Assembly (NCBI RefSeq): GCF_001953305.1
Contig: NZ_MTFE01000010.1
Location: 2,911,740-2,975,739 of the forward strand
Reading direction: 5' to 3'
From: Cnuella takakiae
Lineage (GTDB): Bacteria; Bacteroidota; Bacteroidia; Chitinophagales; Chitinophagaceae
Length of the DNA: 64,000 nucleotides
The notes under the pieces are model-generated. The model saw only the letters and a program-made list of their open reading frames with translations. It had not been told where the DNA came from and made no database searches. Positions 29,240 through 40,023 of this stretch are shown here, piece after piece. Both the position numbers and the translations under genes were made by a program. The stretch's first letter is position 1, and every line of letters begins with the position of its first letter.

Positions 29240-31591
29240 ATGAAACCATTACTTTCCTTAATGCTGGTGATGCTTTGCCTGGGTGCAACGGCCCAGAAAA
29301 AGATGACCCTGAGCGGCTATGTGCGCGACAGTGCTACCGGCGAGTCGGTGATCAGTGCCACCATTGCGGTATCGGGTAAAAACCTTTCGGTGAGCAGCAA
29401 CCAGTATGGCTTTTTCTCGCTGACCCTTGATAGCGGCAGCTATGTGCTGGCAGTAACCCATGTGGGTTATATCACCCAGGGTTACCCGGTAAACCTGCAA
29501 CAGGACCAGCGGCTCGACATCTTGTTGCAATCCACCAGCAGTGCCCTGAGCGAAGTAAAGGTGTATAGCCGCCGCCGCGACCAGAACGTGCGGAACGCTC
29601 AAATGGGGCGTATCGATCTGTCCATCAACCAGATCAAGAACATCCCGGCCTTCCTGGGCGAGGTGGACATCCTGAAAACCCTGCAACTGCTGCCCGGTGT
29701 GCGCAATGCGGGTGAAGGGAATGCCGGTTTTTACGTTCGGGGTGGTGGTGCCGACCAAAACCTGATCATGCTGGATGATGCCGTGGTGTACAATACCGGC
29801 CACCTGTTTGGGTTTTTCTCCATTTTCAACTCAGACGCTATCAAAAATACTTCCCTGATCAAGGGCGGCATGCCTGCACAGTACGGCGGCAGGCTGTCTT
29901 CAGTGCTGGACATTACCATGAAGGACGGCAATAGCCGCAAATTTGAAGGGGAAGGCGGCATCGGCCTGATTGCATCGCGGCTTTCGTTGCAGGGACCATT
30001 GGTAAAGGACAAAGCTTCCTTTATCGTATCGGCCCGCCGCACTTATGTGGATGCGCTCACCCGGCCATTTATCAAAAAAACTTCCGATTTCTACGGTTCT
30101 GGCTATTTCTTTTACGACCTTAATGCCAAGATCAACTACCGGATCTCGGAAAAAGACCGGCTCTACCTAAGCGGGTACTTTGGCCGCGATGTTTTTGATT
30201 TCAACAACCAGCGCCGATCTTTTGGCGCCAAGATTCCTTGGGGTAACAGCACGGCAACGCTGCGGTGGAACCATGTGTTCAGCAATAAACTGTTTGCCAA
30301 CACTACGGTGGTGTTCAATGATTATAAGTTCCGGTTTACTGCGAGGCAGGATAACCTGAATTTCACCCTCGCCTCCGGCATCCGCGATGGCAATGCCAAG
30401 GTAGATTTTGACTATTACCCGGCACCCAGGCACAAGATGAAGTTTGGGGGTCAAACCACCTACCACCGCTTTACGCCCAATGTACTCAGCGGGAACCAGG
30501 ATTCGGTGGTATTTACGCCCAGCAATGAGGACAATAAATACGCCTGGGAAAACGCCCTGTACATTCAGGACGATTGGGACCTGAGCGAAAAGATAAAGCT
30601 GAACTATGGCCTGCGGTGGACCGGTTTCAGCCAGGTGGGTCCTTATACGGCCTTCCAGCGGGACGCCAACCGCAATAAGCTGGATAGCACCGTGTATGGC
30701 AGTGGCGACCTGATCAAAACCTACCAGGGTTTGGAGCCCAGGGCCACTATGCGTTTCCAGATAAATGACGCGTCTTCCATCAAGGCGGCGGTAAACCGCA
30801 ATTACCAGTTCATACACCTTGTAAGCAATTCTGGTTCTACGCTGCCCACCGACCTTTGGGTGCCCAGTACCTTCCGGGTAAAACCGCAGATTGCCTGGCA
30901 GTATGCTTTGGGTTATTTTAAAAACCTGAAGGATAATGCTATTGAAACTTCGGTAGAAGTGTATTACAAGTCTATGCAAAACCAGATCGAGTACCGCGAA
31001 GGCTACACACCCGGCCTCACCGACCCCGAAGAGGAATTTGTTTTTGGCAAGGGCTGGAGTTATGGCTCCGAGTTCCTGATCAACAAAGTGCGGGGTAAAC
31101 TGACCGGCTGGGTTGGGTATACGCTTTCCTGGACCTGGCGGCAGTTTCCACAATTGAATGAAGGCAAAAAGTACCCGGCCCGTTACGACCGCCGCCATGA
31201 TCTCTCCGTAGTAGGTACTTACGAACTCAGTCCAAAATGGCGGTTTGGTGGTGCCTTTGTTTATGGTACCGGTAATGCCACTTCCCTGCCCGAACGGTTT
31301 TATATTGTTGAAGGAGTGCTCACACAGGCATTCAGCCGCATCAATGCCTACCGCTTACCGGCTTATCACCGCCTCGACCTGAGTGCAACCCTTACCCCCA
31401 ACAAGAATAAAAACCGGAAACTCGGTACCCAATGGGTGTTCAGCATTTATAATGTGTACAGCAGGCTCAATCCTTACTTCCTCTACTTCGACCAAACCGG
31501 CAGCCCGCTTGATGGCAGCCTGAAGGTAGAAGCGAGGCAAGTGTCGCTGTTCCCAATTATTCCTACCGTTACCTGGAACTTTAAGTTTTAA
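29240..31591 (+). CDS. TonB-dependent receptor with CarboxypepD_reg-like domain
   Basis: 783-residue outer-membrane receptor. Signal peptide 1-18 (MKPLLSLMLVMLCLGATAQ); an Ig-like CarboxypepD_reg-like domain about 22-105 (LSGYVRDSATGESVISATIAV, YGFFSLTLDSGSYVL); a plug domain about 120-240 with NAGFYVRGGGADQNLIMLDDAVVYN; then a beta-barrel to the C-terminal aromatic VTWNFKF. It is short for a SusC-type receptor and no SusD partner follows, so glycan uptake is unlikely. Co-transcription with the DUF3347 gene (12-nt gap) hints at a metal or metal-chelate substrate; this is inference. Confidence 0.92.
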   Translation: MKPLLSLMLVMLCLGATAQKKMTLSGYVRDSATGESVISATIAVSGKNLSVSSNQYGFFSLTLDSGSYVLAVTHVGYITQGYPVNLQQDQRLDILLQSTSSALSEVKVYSRRRDQNVRNAQMGRIDLSINQIKNIPAFLGEVDILKTLQLLPGVRNAGEGNAGFYVRGGGADQNLIMLDDAVVYNTGHLFGFFSIFNSDAIKNTSLIKGGMPAQYGGRLSSVLDITMKDGNSRKFEGEGGIGLIASRLSLQGPLVKDKASFIVSARRTYVDALTRPFIKKTSDFYGSGYFFYDLNAKINYRISEKDRLYLSGYFGRDVFDFNNQRRSFGAKIPWGNSTATLRWNHVFSNKLFANTTVVFNDYKFRFTARQDNLNFTLASGIRDGNAKVDFDYYPAPRHKMKFGGQTTYHRFTPNVLSGNQDSVVFTPSNEDNKYAWENALYIQDDWDLSEKIKLNYGLRWTGFSQVGPYTAFQRDANRNKLDSTVYGSGDLIKTYQGLEPRATMRFQINDASSIKAAVNRNYQFIHLVSNSGSTLPTDLWVPSTFRVKPQIAWQYALGYFKNLKDNAIETSVEVYYKSMQNQIEYREGYTPGLTDPEEEFVFGKGWSYGSEFLINKVRGKLTGWVGYTLSWTWRQFPQLNEGKKYPARYDRRHDLSVVGTYELSPKWRFGGAFVYGTGNATSLPERFYIVEGVLTQAFSRINAYRLPAYHRLDLSATLTPNKNKNRKLGTQWVFSIYNVYSRLNPYFLYFDQTGSPLDGSLKVEARQVSLFPIIPTVTWNFKF

Positions 31592-31720
31592 GTCGGAGGT
31601 AAGAAGTACGAAGTCAACAGCCGGTCACATCAAGAACCGGCTGTTTACTTTGTACTTTGAAATTCGCACTTCGCACTTCGCACTTCCAACTTCGTACTTC
31701 GCACTTCCACCTTCGTACTT
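31592..31720. repeat. Terminator hairpin inside a word-type inverted repeat
   Basis: The convergent gap is filled from stop to stop. Left arm 31592-31616 (GAAGTACGAAGT words) faces right arm 31647-31720, made of repeated CGCACTTC, CGTACTTC and CCAACTTC words. Between them AACAGCCGGT (31616-31625) pairs with ACCGGCTGTT (31636-31645), followed by TACTTT, a plausible terminator. The right arm runs into the TAA of the thioredoxin-like gene. Confidence 0.8.
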
Positions 31721-32843
31721 AATACACCCTTCCAATCAAGGGATGATCCACGATCATCTTCTTGATGGCCATGGGATTGATAGTGGCCTGTTTGCGGTAA
31801 ACAATTTTTCCGCCGGGCTCCACCAGGATGGTGTAGGGGAGGGCGCCCTGCCATTTGGAGTCCACTGCTTCAATCAGTTTGTATTTGTCGTCTGCCGAAA
31901 ACAGGTAGTTCTTATTGGATGCACCTTTTCCCTGCAGGAACTTCAGCACTTTATCTTTCTTTTCAGGGCTGTCAGCGGAAATGGAAACAAACTCGAAATC
32001 CCTTCCGCGGTACATACGGTTGATGCTCATAAAATCGGGGAACTCAACCACGCAGGGCCCGCACCAAGTAGCCCAAATATTGATCAGGCGGAGTTTGTCG
32101 CCTTTGTTGGCCAGGAGCTCTTTTACGCCGGCTTCGTCAATCATATCCAAACCCACGGGTTCTTTCATCCAACCTTCCATGGCTGTTTTGTTGCCTTCCT
32201 CTTTTTCGGCCCATTTTACCGAGCAGCCAAAAACCTTTGTAGTAGCCACCGGCACTTCTTTTTCCTGGAGCAGGGCGTCAAGCGCATTGCGGGTATCGAG
32301 GCTGTTGGGTGTTTTGGTGGGTTTCTCCACATCATCGATGCGGCCCTGGTAGCGCAGCTTACGTTCTTTGTCGAAAATAAAAACATGTGGGGTAGCTACG
32401 GGTCCATAGGCTTTGGCCATGGCCTGCATATCGCCATCATACAGGTAAGGGAAATTGTATCCTTTCTCCTTTGCCCTTTGCTTCATCTCGGCATAAGAGT
32501 CGCTCAGGTCGGTATAACCCAGTTCATCCAACCGTACAGCCTTGGGGTCGTTGGGCGATACTGCTACAACAGCAACGCCTTTTGCTGCATAATCTTTGGT
32601 AAGTTGAATCAACCGGTCTTCGTAAGCCTGGGCAGTAGGGCAGTGGTTACAGGTAAATACGATGGCCAGCAGTTTGGCGCTATTAAATGACGCAAGGGTA
32701 TAGGTTTTACCGTCTACGCCTTTGAGGGAAAAGGACGGTGCCTTGGTTCCGATGGCAATGGTTGGATGATCATCTGCCGCTAAGGCCAAAACGGGCAGCA
32801 AAAACAATAGGAGTAAGGAAGTTAGCAGGGTTCCTTTTTTCAT
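31719..32843 (-). CDS. Secreted tandem thioredoxin-fold protein
   Basis: 374 residues with signal peptide 1-22. Two thioredoxin-like domains are fused. The first (about 28-195) looks like an AhpC/TSA-type redoxin with CNHC at 65-68 (IVFTCNHCPTAQAYED). The second (about 215-374) is TlpA/ResA-like with WCGPC at 260-264 (NIWATWCGPCVVEFP) and a cis-Pro region (ALPYTILVEP). A cysteine at 207 (FGCSVKW) lies in the linker. The likely role is disulfide or peroxide chemistry in the periplasm. Neighbours give no partner. Confidence 0.9.
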   Translation of the reverse strand: MKKGTLLTSLLLLFLLPVLALAADDHPTIAIGTKAPSFSLKGVDGKTYTLASFNSAKLLAIVFTCNHCPTAQAYEDRLIQLTKDYAAKGVAVVAVSPNDPKAVRLDELGYTDLSDSYAEMKQRAKEKGYNFPYLYDGDMQAMAKAYGPVATPHVFIFDKERKLRYQGRIDDVEKPTKTPNSLDTRNALDALLQEKEVPVATTKVFGCSVKWAEKEEGNKTAMEGWMKEPVGLDMIDEAGVKELLANKGDKLRLINIWATWCGPCVVEFPDFMSINRMYRGRDFEFVSISADSPEKKDKVLKFLQGKGASNKNYLFSADDKYKLIEAVDSKWQGALPYTILVEPGGKIVYRKQATINPMAIKKMIVDHPLIGRVY

Positions 32844-33671: not shown

Positions 33672-34739
33672 CTACCAGGTAGCCCTTGCACTGGCGCTTT
33701 CCGCTAAGGGCGTAAAGGTACCTGCCAGGTATTTGTAATATCCTGTAATAGCAATCATGGCGGCATTGTCGGTACAGTACTCAAAATCTGGAATAAACAC
33801 TTCCCAGCCATGTTGGGCACCTAATTCCTTTAATCCCTTACGCAGCCCGCTATTGGCCGATACACCGCCAGCCATGCAAAGACGCGTACAGCCTGTTTGC
33901 AGGGCCGCTTTCTTCAATTTGTTAAGTAGGATGGTTACAATCCGGTGTTGGATAGAAGCGCAGATGTCAGCCAGGTGTTTGGTAACAAAGTCTGGGTTTT
34001 CTTTTTGCTGCTTTTGCAAAAAATACAGCACGGAAGTTTTTAAGCCACTGAAACTAAAATCAAGTCCTTCAATTTGAGGCTCGGCAAAAGCAAAAGCTTT
34101 GGGATTGCCCGATTGGGCATATTTGTCAATCAGGGGGCCGCCAGGGTATGAAAGGCCCATGATCTTGGCCGTTTTGTCGAATGCCTCACCGGCTGCATCA
34201 TCAAGTGTTTCGCCAATCACTTCCATATCGGAAGGGCTTTTCACAAACACAATTTGGGTATGGCCGCCGCTAACGGTCAAACATAAAAAAGGAAATGCCG
34301 GTTGCGGGTCACCAATGAGATTGGCAAGTACATGCGCCTGCATGTGGTGAACAGCAATCAGGGGCTTGTCCATTGCAATGGCAAGGGACCGGGCAAACTG
34401 GCTGCCCACCAGCAGGGAGCCGATCAGGCCCGGAGCCTGGGTATAAGCAATGGCATCAATTTCCGGAAGGGAAACATTCGCTTGCTTTAGCGCAAGGTCT
34501 ACTACGGGTACGATGTTTTGCATGTGTGCCCGGCTAGCCAGCTCGGGCACCACGCCGCCATATTGTTCGTGTACGGTCTGGTTGGCTATATAGTTGGAAA
34601 GGATCTTGCCATCCCGGCACACCGAAGCCGAGGTTTCATCACAGGAAGATTCAATGGCCAAAATTGTAACACCAACACCCCATGTCCCCCTGAATGGGGA
34701 ACTTAGGCCGGAGTTTCCTTGTTCAGTTTCCAAATTCAT
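33672..34739 (-). CDS. tsaD: tRNA threonylcarbamoyladenosine synthase subunit TsaD, with a repeat-encoded N-terminal extension
   Basis: 355-residue Kae1/TsaD ATPase that makes t6A37 in ANN-decoding tRNAs with TsaB and TsaE. Family signature: LAIESSCDETS, HHMQAHVLANL (metal His pair), LTVSGGHTQIV and the C-terminal CTDNAAMIAITGYY. Conserved sequence begins at residue 25; the first 24 residues are not part of the family. Codons 9-22 are the translation of a 39-nt dispersed repeat (34676-34714). No ATG or GTG occurs between the repeat and the conserved core (only ATT 34664 and TTG 34661), and a TATCTTCG promoter-like word precedes ATG 34739, so the extended start is the best choice. Confidence 0.95.
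   Translation of the reverse strand: MNLETEQGNSGLSSPFRGTWGVGVTILAIESSCDETSASVCRDGKILSNYIANQTVHEQYGGVVPELASRAHMQNIVPVVDLALKQANVSLPEIDAIAYTQAPGLIGSLLVGSQFARSLAIAMDKPLIAVHHMQAHVLANLIGDPQPAFPFLCLTVSGGHTQIVFVKSPSDMEVIGETLDDAAGEAFDKTAKIMGLSYPGGPLIDKYAQSGNPKAFAFAEPQIEGLDFSFSGLKTSVLYFLQKQQKENPDFVTKHLADICASIQHRIVTILLNKLKKAALQTGCTRLCMAGGVSANSGLRKGLKELGAQHGWEVFIPDFEYCTDNAAMIAITGYYKYLAGTFTPLAESASARATW
34676..34714 (-). repeat. Family A palindromic repeat, copy A, inside tsaD coding sequence
   Basis: 39 nt, read on the minus strand as ACTCCGGCCTAAGTTCCCC, then a short loop, GGGGG and GGGGTG. It differs from copy B at 3 of 39 positions. Its length is 13 codons and it leaves the tsaD frame open. It faces copy B (34924-34962) in inverted orientation. 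Confidence 0.9.
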
Positions 34740-34809
34740 CGGTGCGAAGATAGGGCAAGCTTAGACCGGTTAAATGCGTGTAGACCTGGGGCAAAGTATT
34801 AAAAAGCGA

Positions 34810-34833
34810 ATGGGCTGTGTAGACACAGCCCAT
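34810..34833. repeat. Perfect hairpin within the copy A-copy B segment
   Basis: ATGGGCTGTGT (34810-34820) and ACACAGCCCAT (34823-34833) are exact complements with a 2-nt loop. No T-run follows, so terminator function for the permease transcript is uncertain. It lies upstream of the tsaD start. Confidence 0.75.
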
Positions 34834-34923
34834 GACATATTACTTCAGTTCTTAAGTGTTTAATAAAAAATCACTAAGCATACCATTTAACCCTGCAAAA
34901 TGCCCATAGAAAACAAGAAAGGT

Positions 34924-34962
34924 ACTCCGGCCTAAGTTCCCCCTTCAGGGGAACAGGGGGTG
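34924..34962 (+). repeat. Family A palindromic repeat, copy B, 3 nt from the permease stop codon
   Basis: 39 nt beginning ACTCCGGCCTAAGTTCCCCC and ending CAGGGGGTG. The inner part TTCCCC/GGGGAA can form a hairpin. The ABC permease stop codon (34966-34968, minus strand) is 3 nt away. Confidence 0.9.
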
Positions 34963-34965
34963 GAT

Positions 34966-36216
34966 TTAACTCCTGATGGCCACAACCGGGTCCATCTTGG
35001 CAGCCTGGGAAGCCGGAATAATGCCCGCCAAAACGCCTACGATGATACAGATAGAAATGGCCAAAATCATGTTGCTTGTGGATATGAAAATGGGGAAATT
35101 CAGCGCACTGCTAATGACAATGGTGAGTAGGTAAACCAGCAAAATACCCAGGAAGCCACCGATGAGACATAAGGCCGCGGACTCCATCAGGAACTCGGTC
35201 AGGATAACGCGGGGCTTGGCGCCAATGGCTTTTTTCAAACCAATCTGGCTGGTTCGTTCTTTTACCGTTACAAACATGATATTGGCTACGCCAAACATGC
35301 CTACGATGAGGGAGAGGGCTGCAATGGCCCAGCCGCCAATATTTACGCTGGCAAAAATGCCGCTCATGGCCTCGCTGAATTCATTGATGTCGTTGAGGGC
35401 AAAATTTAATTCCTGTGTGGGCGTCAGTTTGCGGATGCCCCTGAGAGCAATGGTGAGTTCATCCTTTAAAAGGGCGGTGCTGGTGGTTTCTTTTCCTTTT
35501 ACCAGGATCAAGGGGTCAGCCGTTAGCTCGTTCATAATGGTCCGGCCATACTGGTAAGAAAAAATCACCGATTTATCCAGTTGCCAACCACCCAGCATCT
35601 GGCCACCTTGCTTTTTAATTACACCAATCACCTGGTTGGTTCGTCCTCTTACCGTAATGATTTTGCCAACAGCCCGTTCGGCATCACCCACCAGTTGTTC
35701 GGCAATTTCATTTCCAATGACTGCAACGCCGGCGCCTTGCTCAAATTCGGAAGGCGTGAGCATCCGGCCGTAGGCAATTTCTACCGGCTGAATGGCGGGA
35801 AAGTCTTCTGTGATACCATATATCACTGCGCCGTTCAGCACATTGCTGCCAAACTCCACTTGTCCGGATGTATTATTTACAAATGCCACGGCGGAAGCCG
35901 AGGGGGTCCGCTCCCGGATCATTTCTATTTCCCTGTATTTGGGAACCGGCCGGTTTACATATTTCCACCAGGGATAATCAGGGCCACCGCCTGCCGAATA
36001 GTCCCATTTGTCGATATAAATTGTATTGGTGCCCAGCGATTTGATTTCGTTCTGGATATTGTACTCCAGGCTATTGACGGTAGCCAGCACCCCGATGATG
36101 CAGAAGATGCCAATGGTGACACCAAAAAGGGAAAGGAAAGCACGGAGTTTATTTTTCCATAATTCCTGAAAAGCCATTTTAAAGCTGTTCACGATAATTT
36201 CCAGGTTCTGGCGCAT
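34966..36216 (-). CDS. ABC transporter permease, MacB/FtsX type
   Basis: 416 residues. One N-terminal membrane helix (about 22-45, LRAFLSLFGVTIGIFCIIGVLATV), a large periplasmic MacB_PCD domain (about 50-270), then three C-terminal helices with the FtsX-like segment VKERTSQIGLKKAIGAKPRVILTEFLMES. This topology belongs to mechanotransmission-type exporters or lipoprotein-release systems that work with an ATPase and often a periplasmic adaptor. Neither partner gene is adjacent, so the system is split or encoded elsewhere. Substrate unknown. Confidence 0.92.
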   Translation of the reverse strand: MRQNLEIIVNSFKMAFQELWKNKLRAFLSLFGVTIGIFCIIGVLATVNSLEYNIQNEIKSLGTNTIYIDKWDYSAGGGPDYPWWKYVNRPVPKYREIEMIRERTPSASAVAFVNNTSGQVEFGSNVLNGAVIYGITEDFPAIQPVEIAYGRMLTPSEFEQGAGVAVIGNEIAEQLVGDAERAVGKIITVRGRTNQVIGVIKKQGGQMLGGWQLDKSVIFSYQYGRTIMNELTADPLILVKGKETTSTALLKDELTIALRGIRKLTPTQELNFALNDINEFSEAMSGIFASVNIGGWAIAALSLIVGMFGVANIMFVTVKERTSQIGLKKAIGAKPRVILTEFLMESAALCLIGGFLGILLVYLLTIVISSALNFPIFISTSNMILAISICIIVGVLAGIIPASQAAKMDPVVAIRS

Positions 36217-36285
36217 GCAACAAATGTAACCGAATTGCCGGGAACCTTTGCGCCCCCTGCACCAGCATACTACCGGTAATCAACA

Positions 36286-36313
36286 AAAAGGCCGGCAATA
36301 TTGCCGGCCTTTT
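36286..36313. terminator. Terminator, perfect 28-nt palindrome
   Basis: AAAAGGCCGGCAAT followed directly by its complement ATTGCCGGCCTTTT. With A-tracts and T-tracts it can work both ways; it most probably ends the minus-strand transcript of the small gene at 36405-36626. Confidence 0.85.
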
Positions 36314-36404
36314 ATGTTATAAAAAAAGCAGAATCGGTACTTTCCTGGATCATTTCCTTTCTTTAATCATTATTCATCCACGGTACCCACCTACCTCTGC
36401 TTTG

Positions 36405-36626
36405 TTAATGTTGGGAACGGTCATCTTGTTTGTGTTCGCTGCTGCCCGACATATCATCTTTAGTAGGATGACTGTTTTGCTGCTGGCGCTTATTAAAGTA
36501 GGGTTCTCTTCTTTGTTCAAAGTTCATACCCTCAAATCCCTGCTCAGCCGAAGACCTGCCCGAATCGTTGTAAGAACCACCACCGGGATGACCGCCTCGG
36601 TTCCCGTTTTCCCGATTTTGTTCCAT
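36405..36626 (-). CDS. Small hydrophilic, probably disordered protein
   Basis: 73 residues from ATG 36626 (MEQNRENGNRGG); an ATG at 36674 would add 16 residues that look unlike the rest. The protein is almost free of aliphatic residues and rich in Gly, Ser, Asn, Gln, Arg, Glu and Asp, with three short segments holding aromatic residues (FEGMNFEQRREPYF). No family is recognised. Its composition is like that of the protein at 8382-8654. A strong terminator 92 nt downstream supports it as a separate transcription unit. Confidence 0.55.
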   Translation of the reverse strand: MEQNRENGNRGGHPGGGSYNDSGRSSAEQGFEGMNFEQRREPYFNKRQQQNSHPTKDDMSGSSEHKQDDRSQH

Positions 36627-36837
36627 AGCAATTAACGTTACAACCCTTATGGACCTAAAACTATGCCGGAGCAATGTACCCTATGGTCAAAGGTGTACCA
36701 GATACATTCTGGGGAATTTTCGCCCGTTCGGGCCATTGTGCTTTCCCCGAAATTTCTATATAAGTTGTTAAGGCTGAATGATTATAATCAGGGCAACTTT
36801 CTCTTCAATGCCTTATGCCCCTTAAGGTTCTTTCCTC

Positions 36838-36867
36838 TTGCCCAAAGGCTGCCATGCCTTACCTTTG
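36838..36867 (+). promoter_or_regulatory. Promoter for prfC
   Basis: TTG at 36838-36840, a 19-bp spacer, then TACCTTTG at 36860-36867. This is the second site in the window with both Bacteroidota promoter elements at normal spacing. The transcript would start near 36872 and have a leader of about 44 nt. Confidence 0.65.
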
Positions 36868-36882
36868 CAGCCGCAAAATGAC

Positions 36883-36909
36883 CCCGCCCCAACATTGCGG
36901 CGGGTTTTT
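36883..36909 (+). terminator. Terminator-like hairpin in the prfC leader
   Basis: CCCGCC (36883-36888) pairs with GGCGGG (36899-36904) across a 10-nt loop and is followed at once by TTTTT (36905-36909). It lies between the predicted transcription start (about 36872) and the start codon (36916), so it has the form and place of an attenuator. The alternative is a chance GC-rich hairpin that hides the start region. Confidence 0.5.
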
Positions 36910-36915
36910 ACCACC

Positions 36916-38502
36916 ATGAAGTATCAACAGGAAATCAGCCGCCGCCGCACTTTTGCCATCATCTCGCACCCCGATGCGGGAAAGACCACCCTTACCGAGA
37001 AGTTCCTGCTTTTTGGTGGTGCCATCCAGGTAGCCGGCGCGGTGAAAAGCAATAAAATAAAAAAGGCCGCAACCTCCGACTTTATGGAGATTGAGCGGCA
37101 ACGCGGTATCTCGGTAGCCACCTCGGTTATGAGCTTCGAGTACCAGAATACCTTGGTGAACCTGCTGGACACCCCGGGTCACAAGGACTTTGCGGAAGAC
37201 ACATTCCGCACCCTCACTGCCGTGGATTCGGTGATCCTGGTGGTGGACAGTGTAAATGGTGTGGAAGAACAAACCCGCCGCCTGATGCAGGTATGCAGCA
37301 TGCGTAAAACTTCGGTGATCGTGTTCATCAACAAAATGGACCGCGATGGTAAGAACCGCTTCGACCTGCTGGAGGAGATTGAAAAGGAGCTGTCTATTTC
37401 CCTGCATCCCATGACCTGGCCTATCAACCAGGGTAAGGAGTTCAAGGGGGTTTACGACCTCCACAACCGCAGCCTGCGCCTGTTTACAGCCAATACCAAG
37501 GCAACAGATGAAGATACCATTTCTATTTCCGACCTCAACGATGGCCAATTAGATGATAAAGTAGGGAAGAAGGATGCCGACCTCCTGCGCGAAGATGTGG
37601 AACTGATTGACGGCGTTTACGGCGAACTGGATGTTGCCAGTTACCTGTCGGGTGATGTGGCGCCGGTATTTTTCGGATCGGCCATCAACAACTTTGGCGT
37701 TAAGGAAATGCTGGACACCTTTATACGTATTGCCCCCGTGCCCCGCGACCGGGAAACCAACCTGCGCAAGGTAGGGGTGGGCGAGGACAAGTTTTCCGGC
37801 TTTATCTTTAAAATACACGCCAACCTCGACCCCAAGCACCGCGACCGGATTGCCTTTTTGCGGGTATGTTCGGGTAAGTTTGAGCGCAATAAATATTTCC
37901 ACCACGTACGGCTGGATAAGGATGTACGCTTCTCCAATCCTTACACGTTTTTGGCCCGCGAGAAAAGCGTGGTTGATGATGCTTATCCCGGCGATGTGGT
38001 GGGTTTGTTTGATACGGGAAACTTCAAAATTGGTGATACCCTCACCGAAGGCGAGGAGTTTTTCTTTACGGGCATTCCAACCTTTTCACCCGAAATTTTT
38101 AAAGAGGTGATCAATAAGGACCCGATGAAAACTAAGCAACTGGAAAAAGGCCTGCTGCAGCTCACGGACGAAGGTGTGGCCCAGCTCTTTACCCAGTTTG
38201 GCGGCAATAAAAAGATCATCGGGTGCGTAGGTGAGCTCCAGTTTGAAGTAATCCAGTACCGCCTGCTGCACGAATACGGCGCATCGGTACAGTTCAACTC
38301 CCTGCCTTTTTACAAGGCCACCTGGATCACCAGCAACGACCCCCAGAAACTGGAAGACTTTACCCGGTTCAAACAGGCCAATATCGCGGAAGACAAGGAC
38401 AAGCAGCTGGTGTACCTGGCCCAAAGCGAATGGTTCCTGAATACCGAAAGAAACAATAACCCGGAGATCGAGTTTCATTTTACGAGTGAGGTGAATAAGT
38501 AA
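36916..38502 (+). CDS. prfC: Peptide chain release factor 3
   Basis: 528-residue translational GTPase that recycles RF1/RF2 after termination. I use ATG 36916 ([20 protein letters not shown]), giving the usual length; the open frame back to 36838 covers the promoter and hairpin. G1 is [15 protein letters not shown]2 lies in [17 protein letters not shown] (QRGI..T), G3 is DTPGHKDF and G4 is NKMD (FINKMDRD). RF3-specific C-terminal sequence [17 protein letters not shown] follows. It is monocistronic and convergent with recF. Confidence 0.97.
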
Positions 38503-38520
38503 ACCTCACCTCCCGGCTCA

Positions 38521-38552
38521 CACCCCCTGTTCCCCTAAAGGGGGAACTTAGG
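38521..38552 (-). repeat. Family A palindromic repeat, copy C, 18 nt after the prfC stop
   Basis: Read on the minus strand it carries CCTAAGTTCCCCCTTTAGGG and ACAGGGGGTG; the ACTCCGG head is degraded to a few bases. It faces copy D in inverted orientation across 94 nt. Confidence 0.88.
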
Positions 38553-38569
38553 TCAAACAGTCTGATTAC

Positions 38570-38602
38570 AACAGTGCCCCTCCTAAGCAGAGGGGCACTG
38601 TT
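38570..38602. terminator. Bidirectional terminator between prfC and recF
   Basis: AACAGTGCCCCTC (38570-38582) and its exact complement (38590-38602), 13-bp stem with a 7-nt loop, followed by GTTTATAAAAA. It lies between repeat copies C and D and would serve both convergent genes. Confidence 0.8.
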
Positions 38603-38646
38603 GTTTATAAAAACTTCGCCTTAACGTATGGAGCAAAAATGGCAAC

Positions 38647-38685
38647 ACTCCGGCCTAAGTTCCCCCTTTAGGGGGACAGGGGGTG
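38647..38685 (+). repeat. Family A palindromic repeat, copy D, abutting the recF stop codon
   Basis: 39 nt, two differences from copy B. The last base is 38685 and the recF stop codon starts at 38686, so no base separates them. Relative to recF the repeat reads CACCCCCTGTCCCC first, the same orientation in which copies B and C follow their genes. Confidence 0.9.
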
Positions 38686-39783
38686 TCAGGGCTGTTTGAG
38701 CTCTATTATCTGAAACGGCCGCCCCAATTTTTCCAGCTGGCTGGTAAGCCTTTCGCAACTGGTATCGGTGATAAAAACCTGGCTTTCGTTTTCCGTACAT
38801 ACCCGCATCAGGAGGTTGGAGATGCGTTCCTCGTCCAGCTTTTCGAATACATCATCCAGCAGGATAAAAGGGGGGGTGCGTTTTTCCTGGTGCAGAATAT
38901 CTACTTCCGCTAGTTTGAGGGCAAAAAGCAGGCTCTTGCGCTGTCCCTGCGAGGCGATGCTTTTAAAAGTTTGCTCGGCCATATTCAGGGTAAGGTCATC
39001 GCGGTGTATGCCGGCCGTAGTGCGCTGAAGCATCAGGTCCTTCTGGCGGGTAGTATGCAGCAAATGCTCCAGCGGGGTATGGTGCAGTTCGCTTTCATAA
39101 AAAAGTTGCAGGGGCTCGTACTGGCGGGCAATTTCGTTGTACAACTGTTTTACCGCAGGCAAAAATCCAAGCAGGAAGTGCTGCCGTTTTCCAAAAATAA
39201 AATTGCCTTCCCGGGATAGTTGTTCATCCAAAATGTCCAGCACCGACAGGTCGCGGCCCCCAAAGCCTGATGAATAGTTGCGCAGAAAAGAATTACGCTG
39301 CTGAAGGATCCGGGTATAATTAATCAGGGATTGCAGGTAATCGGGATCAAGCTGGGAGAGGAGGGTATCCACAAATTTGCGGCGCTCCTCGCTGGTACCG
39401 ATGATCAGCTGCACATCATCGGGGGCAATCACCACGCAAGGGTAGCGGCCGATATGTTTGGAGAAACGGCTATAGGCATCCCCATCAACCGAGAACTCTT
39501 TTTTTCCTGTTTCACGCAAAATGCAAACGGCTTGCTCGGCATGGCCGCGCAAATTGAACTTGCCTTCGATCCGGAAACCCTGGTGGCCATGCATGGTAAC
39601 CAGCGCATCCTGACGGGTAAAATAGCTTTTGGTGAAACAGAGATAGTGCAGAGCGTCCAGCAGGTTGGTTTTGCCCATGCCATTAAGCCCGCAAATACCC
39701 ACAATGGATTCGGTAAACTGAAACTCCTGGTGGAAATAGTTTTTGAACTGAAACAGCGATATGGAATGACAACGGAGGTCCAA
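38686..39783 (-). CDS. recF: DNA replication and repair protein RecF
   Basis: 365-residue SMC-like ATPase that loads RecA at single-strand gaps with RecO/RecR. Walker A is GLNGMGKTN at 32-40 (family usually G-x-N-G-x-G-K-T); the QGQRKSLLFALKLAE segment holds the ABC-type signature region, and ILLDDVFEKLD is Walker B and D-loop. Length is typical. It is not next to dnaA, dnaN or gyrB, as in many Bacteroidota. Its upstream gap is filled by a word-type repeat. Confidence 0.95.
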   Translation of the reverse strand: MDLRCHSISLFQFKNYFHQEFQFTESIVGICGLNGMGKTNLLDALHYLCFTKSYFTRQDALVTMHGHQGFRIEGKFNLRGHAEQAVCILRETGKKEFSVDGDAYSRFSKHIGRYPCVVIAPDDVQLIIGTSEERRKFVDTLLSQLDPDYLQSLINYTRILQQRNSFLRNYSSGFGGRDLSVLDILDEQLSREGNFIFGKRQHFLLGFLPAVKQLYNEIARQYEPLQLFYESELHHTPLEHLLHTTRQKDLMLQRTTAGIHRDDLTLNMAEQTFKSIASQGQRKSLLFALKLAEVDILHQEKRTPPFILLDDVFEKLDEERISNLLMRVCTENESQVFITDTSCERLTSQLEKLGRPFQIIELKQP

Positions 39784-39824
39784 CGCTGCAAAGAAAAGGG
39801 GATAATGTGAAAATGAGCCAAAGT

Positions 39825-40023
39825 GGTAATAGGCTAATTAGCTATTTTGCTAATGTGCTAAAGTTTCGGTCGAAAAGGATGATTTTTTCCGGGTTTTCGT
39901 GTTGGTACAAATGTCCCAAAAAACTTAATTGCCTATGTCTTATAGAAGCGTACTGCATCTTTTTAGCACATTATCCCATTAGCTAATTAGCACATTGGCA
40001 CATTAGCTAATTACCCTATTACC
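39825..40023. repeat. Word-type inverted repeat, GCTAATTAGC vocabulary
   Basis: The 284-bp divergent gap between recF and pdhA holds AT-rich arms made of GCTAATTAGC, GCACATT and CCTATTACC words: left arm 39825-39863, right arm 39963-40023, with a non-repetitive 99-nt centre. Unlike most members of this class it lies between divergent genes, where a terminator makes little sense. Confidence 0.75.

Follow-up and report, generated by a model that had tools for sequence, protein, structure and literature searches.

A REP-like palindrome in frame ahead of the TsaD core in Cnuella takakiae and palindromes at the same gene border in related species

The tsaD gene of Cnuella takakiae, a member of the Chitinophagaceae (Bacteroidota), contains, in frame and immediately ahead of the conserved family core, one copy of a dispersed 39-nt palindrome (hereinafter the arm), and palindromes of differing sequence are found at the same position in the tsaD genes of several other species. 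We interpret the arm family as a selfish, REP-like palindrome that lodges at the borders of genes and, where it tags a protein, is tolerated; the tsaD copy is, with good probability, read by ribosomes as a disposable tail, tolerated and trapped in place.

The window analyzed is a 64,000-nt stretch of the 5.70-Mb genome (GCF_001953305.1, NZ_MTFE01000010.1, positions 2,911,740-2,975,739, forward strand), and the positions given below for tsaD and its surroundings are window coordinates. The tsaD gene (33672-34739, minus strand; 355 codons from the start ATG 34739) encodes a subunit of the tRNA t6A synthase and is generally essential. Its product matches TIGR03723 with 423.5 bits (cut-off 296.1), and the profile begins at residue 26, behind an N-terminal extension of 24 codons (34668-34739, minus strand) in which copy A of the arm (34676-34714, minus strand) accounts for codons 9-22 and encodes the peptide SGLSSPFRGTWGV. 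The inverted partner, copy B (34924-34962, plus strand), differs from copy A at 3 of the 39 positions, lies 209 nt away, and is located 3 nt from the stop codon of an open reading frame (34966-36216, minus strand) that, from an earlier note and from its sequence, we take to be a putative ABC transporter permease gene; a similar C-terminus is encoded upstream of tsaD in relatives. This geometry, namely the spacing and divergence of the inverted copies, the position of copy B at the permease stop and that of copy A at TsaD residues 9-22 ahead of the core, had been given in a preliminary description of this DNA and agrees in full with the sequence, the coordinates and the profile match. A repeat search of the window lengthens the match between the inverted copies to 48 nt (85%). 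Between the two copies lie a hairpin, ATGGGCTGTG-TAGA-CACAGCCCAT, followed by a T run (34810-34833, minus strand; read from the sequence), which is likely to be the terminator of the permease gene, the box TATCTTCG (34745-34752, minus strand) and codons 1-8 of tsaD, beginning with ATG 34739.

A second pair is present in the window: its left arm (38517-38552, minus strand) follows the stop of the open reading frame 36838-38502, and its right arm (38647-38689, plus strand) faces the 3′ end of a gene called by the codon-model gene finder (38686-39783, minus strand). A scan of positions 34300-39000 against Rfam yielded 8 matches up to E 1, none above the gathering score and none on the arms. Two other repeats of the window are recorded here as separate observations: an AT-rich inverted pair (39803-39862 and 39962-40021, CTAATTAGC...), which is similar to the AT-rich repeats found on both sides of the permease-tsaD gap in certain other species, and ACTTCG-type inverted and tandem repeats (31583-31716) adjoining the 3′ end of the gene 31719-32843.

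The arm family in the C. takakiae genome

In its consensus orientation, the arm reads approximately CTCCGGCCTAAGTTCCCCCTTYAGGGGGACAGGGGGTG, with a strongly conserved core of about 31 nt preceded by 7 nt that are mainly of two types, CTCCGG and GTTTGA. A genome search with the 18-mer head of the arm yields 76 matches (31 + 45, at most 3 mismatches), compared with 0 for the reversed control, and a covariance model built from 40 copies detects at least 127 copies at E <= 0.01, a lower bound given that 150 of the 1510 candidates of the model were scored. The arrangement of the arms was analyzed in the 118 copies found in the DNA surrounding the 18-mer matches. These comprise 52 inverted pairs (104 copies) and 14 unpaired arms, and wherever neighboring arms are less than 600 nt apart, they are ordered minus then plus, with the outer ends towards the genes (53 of 53). 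The start-to-start spacing of the pairs has its mode at 105-109 nt; pairs with this spacing mostly consist of one CTCCGG-type and one GTTTGA-type arm, and most of their interiors contain a similar terminator hairpin.

With gene borders taken from a simple codon-model gene finder, 87 of the 118 arms face the 3′ end of a gene, and 76 of these lie no more than 20 nt from its stop codon; a start is faced by 26 arms, and the remaining 5 face neither. The pairs include 27 located between convergent genes, 20 facing one stop and one start, and 5 with an arm inside a called gene.

Palindromes at the starts of tsaD and other genes

Translation outward through the 118 arms, with the cores placed by family profiles, identifies an N-terminal arm before the family core in seven genes, those for TsaD, MetAT, PaaC, AroK, PssA, a ComF-like protein and a nitronate monooxygenase-like protein, and in these genes the profiles begin at or soon after the arm. 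The methionine aminotransferase (MetAT) reads MNYSGLSSPFRGTGG-VSKLPNVG across the junction, PaaC reads MLQTITKDTGNSGLSSPFRGTGG-FILHLAD, none of the 60 codons that follow its arm being a start codon, and shikimate kinase (AroK) reads MENITNNKDNSGLSSPLKGTGG-GIYLIGF, with a TTG inside the arm. The nitronate monooxygenase-like gene uses another frame of the arm (VGPKFPLQGDRG), and the TTG at residue 24 is a poorer alternative start; such poorer TTG alternatives exist in 2 of the 7 cases. The PssA-like gene has TTG as its sole upstream start and a profile score just under the family cut-off, and the ComF-like gene has an upstream GTG and a score below the cut-off. Four further genes are ambiguous because a start codon comes after the arm, and are outside the count of seven: a metallo-beta-lactamase-fold gene (GTG), a molybdopterin oxidoreductase (ATG), MtaB (ATG, after a degenerate arm) and a glycosylase-like gene (GTG). 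Several arms directly precede an ATG and hence are extragenic (for example, those at loci L010, L022, L023 and L081). At the opposite end of genes, about 14 genes called by the codon-model gene finder alone end in an arm-coded C-terminal tail (for example, at loci L072, L066 and L083): 10 arms provide the final codons together with the stop codon (tails such as HPLSP), and 4 read farther (tails such as PPVPPKGELRPNRP, ending at a stop), with NPLSP and PPVPLKGEPRSK as further examples among these tails; 3 other copies among the 17 on this list are antisense to genes with an N-terminal arm and were set aside. The in-frame arm of tsaD is real, as had been proposed, but tsaD is not a special case in this genome, given the 6 other genes with an N-terminal arm and the roughly 14 with a C-terminal one.

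Among tsaD 5′ regions from the family, this genome included (225 loci fetched, 185 of them distinct), reading recognized an in-frame palindrome of the CCCCTTTAGGGG type directly ahead of the TsaD core in at least 11 of the 185, a minimum given that not all genes with a start at the core were read. One of the 11 is degenerate (L132), another is cut by a contig end (L037), and a twelfth region (L112) has a palindrome of a different kind. Eight of the 11 lack a start codon in the stretch from palindrome to core; L102 and L145 have one there. The encoded peptides vary (SPFRGGGV, SAPFRETGC, NPFRGRGL, SPLQGAEGV, YPLRGEGI and KPPLVGLGV). A clear inverted partner near the permease stop is present in 7 of the 11 (this genome, L102, L104, L136, L155, L163 and L188), a degenerate one was noticed by eye at L132 and L145, and none was seen near the permease stop at L294; the partners in other species were called by motif, pattern or reading. 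In a shuffle test, p was <= 0.005 only for this genome and L136 among the palindrome-bearing loci; it was 0.025 for L104 and 0.03 for L163. Applied to any inverted arm pair in the gap, the test singles out 11 of 184 loci at p <= 0.005, mostly with AT-rich repeats, and for this reason it was not used to count translated palindromes. An automatic stem test flagged 10 of the 185 loci, a set that differs from the 11 taken by reading.

In a tsaD tree of 99 rows, the palindrome is scattered, with 10 changes for 11 marked rows (L112 included) or 9 for 10 when L112 is left out; shuffles required 10.7 changes on average, 146 of 500 being as low as observed, and the well-supported branches force at least 3 changes. 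Given this scattered pattern, a single ancestral insertion followed by many losses is unlikely. All 8 matches of a strict motif scan lie in the permease-tsaD gap, as do 14 of the 20 matches of a looser scan over 657 kb around tsaD (80 loci); the 6 matches outside the gap are no more than noise because the reversed control gave 9 in the same DNA. The permease-tsaD gap is a hot spot among its neighbors within about 4 kb.

Copies of one fixed pattern (at most 2 mismatches), counted in 10 of the 12 genomes requested, number 104 here, 45 in genome G028, 37 in G307 (the source of L136), 33 in G012 and 26 in G309 (the source of L145), and are few in G201 (8), G310 (7), G308 (4), G306 (3) and G311 (2). 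In all three genomes whose variants were inspected, the tsaD copy is of the variant common in that genome (ACAGGGGG here and in G012, CGGAGGGG in G028). In G028, where loci were obtained for 30 of 35 matches, tsaD and a HisF-like gene both have an in-frame N-terminal arm with no earlier usable alternative; a PLP-enzyme-like gene also has one, directly followed by a TTG, and the AroK, MiaA-like and MAP-like genes are ambiguous because of an ATG after the arm (HisF, PLP, MiaA and MAP being presumptive names based on the sequences). For AroK (78 genomes searched, 30 loci, 28 readable), palindromes at the start were found in this genome, at L329 (in frame, with an ATG after it) and at L310 (just before the ATG). 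For PaaC (17 relatives, 14 readable), G010 has an unlike in-frame palindrome (APFPRERAGEW) along with a palindrome after the stop of the preceding gene, and G013 has a short in-frame palindrome (SPPEGAP), all recognized by eye.

Comparison with relatives gives a near empty site for MetAT, where the nearest relative (G002, 74% identity) begins ATG TAT AGC AAA CTA, whereas the gene of C. takakiae begins ATG AAC TAT, followed by 39 nt of arm and AGT AAG CTG, and is thus longer by one codon plus the arm; 6 of the 15 MetAT relatives were unreadable by the motif used. In PssA, 14 of the 16 relatives read have an ATG four codons before the core, where C. takakiae has a GTT adjoining the arm; the exceptions are G012, with the ATG seven codons before the core, and G002, which likewise lacks the core ATG and is extended in its own way. 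On the tsaD tree, the closest relatives (L091, L033 and L032) possess extensions of 23-26 codons without an arm, so the N-terminal extension of TsaD probably predates the arm. Many tsaD genes of Chitinophagaceae appear to start with TTG or GTG right at the core (for example, L034, L036, L040, L108 and L110). No exact empty site for copy A was found among the tsaD relatives compared: the expectation that strains free of the repeat would be missing exactly copy A was not cleanly borne out for tsaD, whose nearest relatives carry an extension of similar length free of the repeat, most of the others starting at the core, and came close to realization in the methionine aminotransferase gene instead.

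These patterns bear on two alternative views of the pairs. The first, which concerns mobility alone and is compatible with a translated border palindrome, is that the two arms move together with their interior as one composite element in the REPIN or MITE style, so that the terminator, promoter and start codon of tsaD would have been brought in with the arms. The constant order of the arms, the modal spacing, the similar terminator hairpins and the preponderance of mixed CTCCGG and GTTTGA pairs all fit such an element. The tsaD pair, however, consists of two CTCCGG-type arms around an unlike interior of 209 nt, the palindromes that bracket one and the same gap differ from species to species, and on its promoter side the interior of the MetAT pair has AAACACATT, a short sequence, in common with the native sequence of a relative. 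Joint movement is therefore regarded as possible but doubtful. The second view holds that the arms are kept for a function, with the 5′ hairpin of a leaderless tsaD mRNA, or the hairpin after a stop, tuning mRNA stability or translation. This view is favored by the recurrence at tsaD, where lineages differ in their palindromes, by the stable folds predicted for the first 90 nt and by the report that in E. coli a REP no more than 15 nt from a stop codon reduces translation (PMC12306157). A conserved function is nevertheless improbable, considering that the palindrome is scattered on the tsaD tree and absent from most relatives, that the same palindrome occurs in unrelated genes and that its sequence differs between species.

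Translation of the tsaD copy

Read in the sense direction, two of the three frames of the arm are free of stops, and the third contains TAA. In the tsaD frame, the start codons upstream of copy A are ATG 34739 and TTG 34733. No start codon occurs between copy A and the TsaD core; the next one in frame, TTG 34661, is inside the core, only 3 codons before the ESSC motif (ESSCDET). The box TATCTTCG begins 13 nt before ATG 34739 and deviates by one mismatch from the Bacteroidota -7 box TAnnTTTG, which is reported at -12 to -5 from the transcript start (PMC9723704). Where tsaD has an upstream ATG but lacks a start 6-10 codons before ESSC (37 genes), a TAnnTTYG box is found within 40 nt of the ATG in 30 and begins 11-14 nt before it in 20, compared with 0.1 expected from the rate further upstream, these sequences being related and accordingly not independent events. 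Taken together, the box at ATG 34739 and this pattern suggest that the tsaD mRNA is probably leaderless or nearly so, starting at about ATG 34739, which would be the start codon; in flavobacteria, leaderless mRNAs are reported to be a minority (5.5%; PMC9723704).

The position of the hairpin is compatible with initiation at this codon: it begins at +41, and the zone of low structure described around the start codons of F. johnsoniae spans -20 to +20 (PMC6847099). In the 16 cases measured (7 genes of this genome and 9 tsaD genes elsewhere), the stem begins at +20 to +56, and in 3 ambiguous genes of this genome at +32 to +41.

Alternatively, the repeat could lie in an untranslated leader, with TsaD starting at TTG 34661 or at the rare start ATT 34664, both inside the core. 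In 141 of the 185 distinct tsaD 5′ regions there is indeed a start codon, often TTG, 6-10 codons before ESSC, and in the literature many NH2-terminal REPs are held to be extragenic (PMC3733652). Initiation at TTG 34661 would, however, cut the first strand of the protein, the promoter box points to transcription beginning close to ATG 34739, and the same arrangement recurs in other genes, including PaaC with its 60 codons devoid of starts. The absence of later starts, together with the promoter boxes and the recurrence, opposes the extragenic reading, which is very unlikely here, and copy A is very probably translated as part of TsaD. Translation of the repeat had been the central proposal of the preliminary description, and it gains support from the absence of a start between arm and core, from the promoter box and from the like cases in other genes and species. 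As read from the DNA, the repeat-coded peptides expected in TsaD are NSGLSSPFR and GTWGVGVTILAIESS.

That the inverted arms delimit an invertible promoter segment subject to phase variation is barely credible: invertible promoters occur in Bacteroidota and arms of 39-48 nt do flank a promoter here, but tsaD is generally essential, reversal of the interior would leave no start codon after the last stop, and 27 of the 52 pairs are located between convergent genes.

Relation to known repeats and proposed origin

The arm resembles REPs and REPINs in length (39 nt, within the range of 20-40 nt), in the number of dispersed copies (over 100) and in the arrangement in inverted pairs (52). REPs have been described within 20 nt of the stops of convergent genes, where they sometimes supply the stop codon, and also inside genes (PMC3733652). 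By contrast, the GTAG or CGTC tag is absent from the consensus of the 118 copies, and no cognate RAYT flanked by the same palindrome is found in this genome. Because these two hallmarks of RAYT-REP systems fail, the arm is denoted REP-like.

No parent transposase for the arm was found among the two Y1 transposases of the genome. The 1.5-kb flanks of the two Y1_Tnp genes carry other hairpins and no CCTAAGTTC arm, and the nearest known arms to one of these genes are about 3 kb away (581599 compared with 584775); a RAYT was accordingly rejected as the mover. The hairpin families at the Y1 genes are CCCACGGTTTCAACCGTGGG (L089, 1352-2202) and GCCGCCGGTGCAACCGGCGG and AACCCCGTAGGGGTT (L090, 24-2125). 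The four-helix-bundle genes (23S rRNA IVP, PF05635) were also rejected since the repeats that bracket them differ in sequence from the arm. There are 8 such genes in the genome (L298-L305), 7 of them bracketed by long inverted repeats; for one (L304), an arm pair is found at a distance of about 0.9 kb. The bracketing repeats are all different in sequence, most being built from short degenerate tandem units, and leave about 430-740 nt between their arms. At two tsaD loci of other species (L105 and L191), a gene that presumably resembles the PF05635 genes, judging by its sequence, is located between the permease gene and tsaD and is bracketed by AT-rich inverted arms.

Short elements fused in frame to genes are known from several systems. 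The palindromic elements of Rickettsia (RPE) are likewise dispersed and in frame in conserved genes, and N-terminal RPE-1 cases are reported to be expressed in vivo (PMC3733652; PMC2229807); the 7 N-terminal cases described here are derived from DNA alone. The RPE are 105-146 bp long, whereas here the translated unit is the 39-nt arm, and here the arms lie at gene borders, mostly in inverted pairs, in Bacteroidota. ERIC/RU elements and bacterial MITEs are also short and non-autonomous and become fused in frame to genes (PMC2229807; PMC2759123), and the arms at both ends of a pair correspond to the terminal inverted repeats of MITEs, but MITE units exceed 100 bp and several MITE families produce target duplications. 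In-frame REPs are reported in the GTAG and CGTC families, including a same-site case in recB of two Xanthomonas (PMC3733652), and in-frame palindromes in tnpA genes of subclass 2.4 (Cyanobacteria, Bacteroidetes), a subclass abundant in Bacteroidetes (PMC6006769). In contrast to both, the palindromes described here are at the N-terminus just before a core that lacks a start of its own, and several species have different palindromes at one and the same gene start. In the literature surveyed (titles and openings of abstracts, few subscription journals), no account of a translated palindrome was encountered for tsaD or for Chitinophagaceae. The novelty originally attached to a translated palindrome in Bacteroidota is thus reduced to a part: in-frame palindromes as such are known outside Rickettsia, according to the two reports just cited, whereas their recurrent N-terminal capture in Bacteroidota looks like a new form.

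The preferred reading, a REP-like border palindrome translated as part of TsaD, may be put as follows. A mover would bring arms to gene borders, mostly as inverted pairs with one arm behind a stop codon and its partner either behind the stop that faces it or at the start that comes next. An arm that comes to lie in an open frame at a start border, behind the start codon and ahead of the core, would yield a protein with a hydrophilic tail; with the mRNA starting at or next to ATG 34739, ribosomes would read the arm and SGLSSPFRGTWGV would become part of the N-terminal tail. Such an arm would be tolerated because two of its three sense frames are stop-free and its 39 nt preserve the frame, and because the tail comes ahead of the folded core and the hairpin, starting 20 nt or more behind the start codon, is clear of the region in which structure would hinder initiation. 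With no later start before the core, copy A would be trapped and could be lost only through an in-frame change, so that copies in essential genes would persist; retention of the tsaD copy in genomes with few copies fits this expectation. Counting against this reading, the recurrence at tsaD exceeds what a neutral random process suggests.

A more specific suggestion, which we consider unlikely, is that the palindromes are delivered by a process that recognizes the edges of coding sequences, that is, stop codons and the starts of leaderless or nearly leaderless genes. If so, they would represent a mobile element targeted by transcript or translation ends, the gaps before tsaD, paaC and aroK would be bracketed repeatedly, and the arm on the start side would become an N-terminal peptide tag.

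For genome annotation, tails such as SGLSSPFRGTGG and PLSP are to be recognized as repeat, and start codons in such genes need care. More generally, these findings indicate that a selfish palindrome can enter a generally essential protein outside Rickettsia, and can do so several times in one genome, and the recurrence at tsaD across species makes the arrival of repeats at gene borders directly testable.
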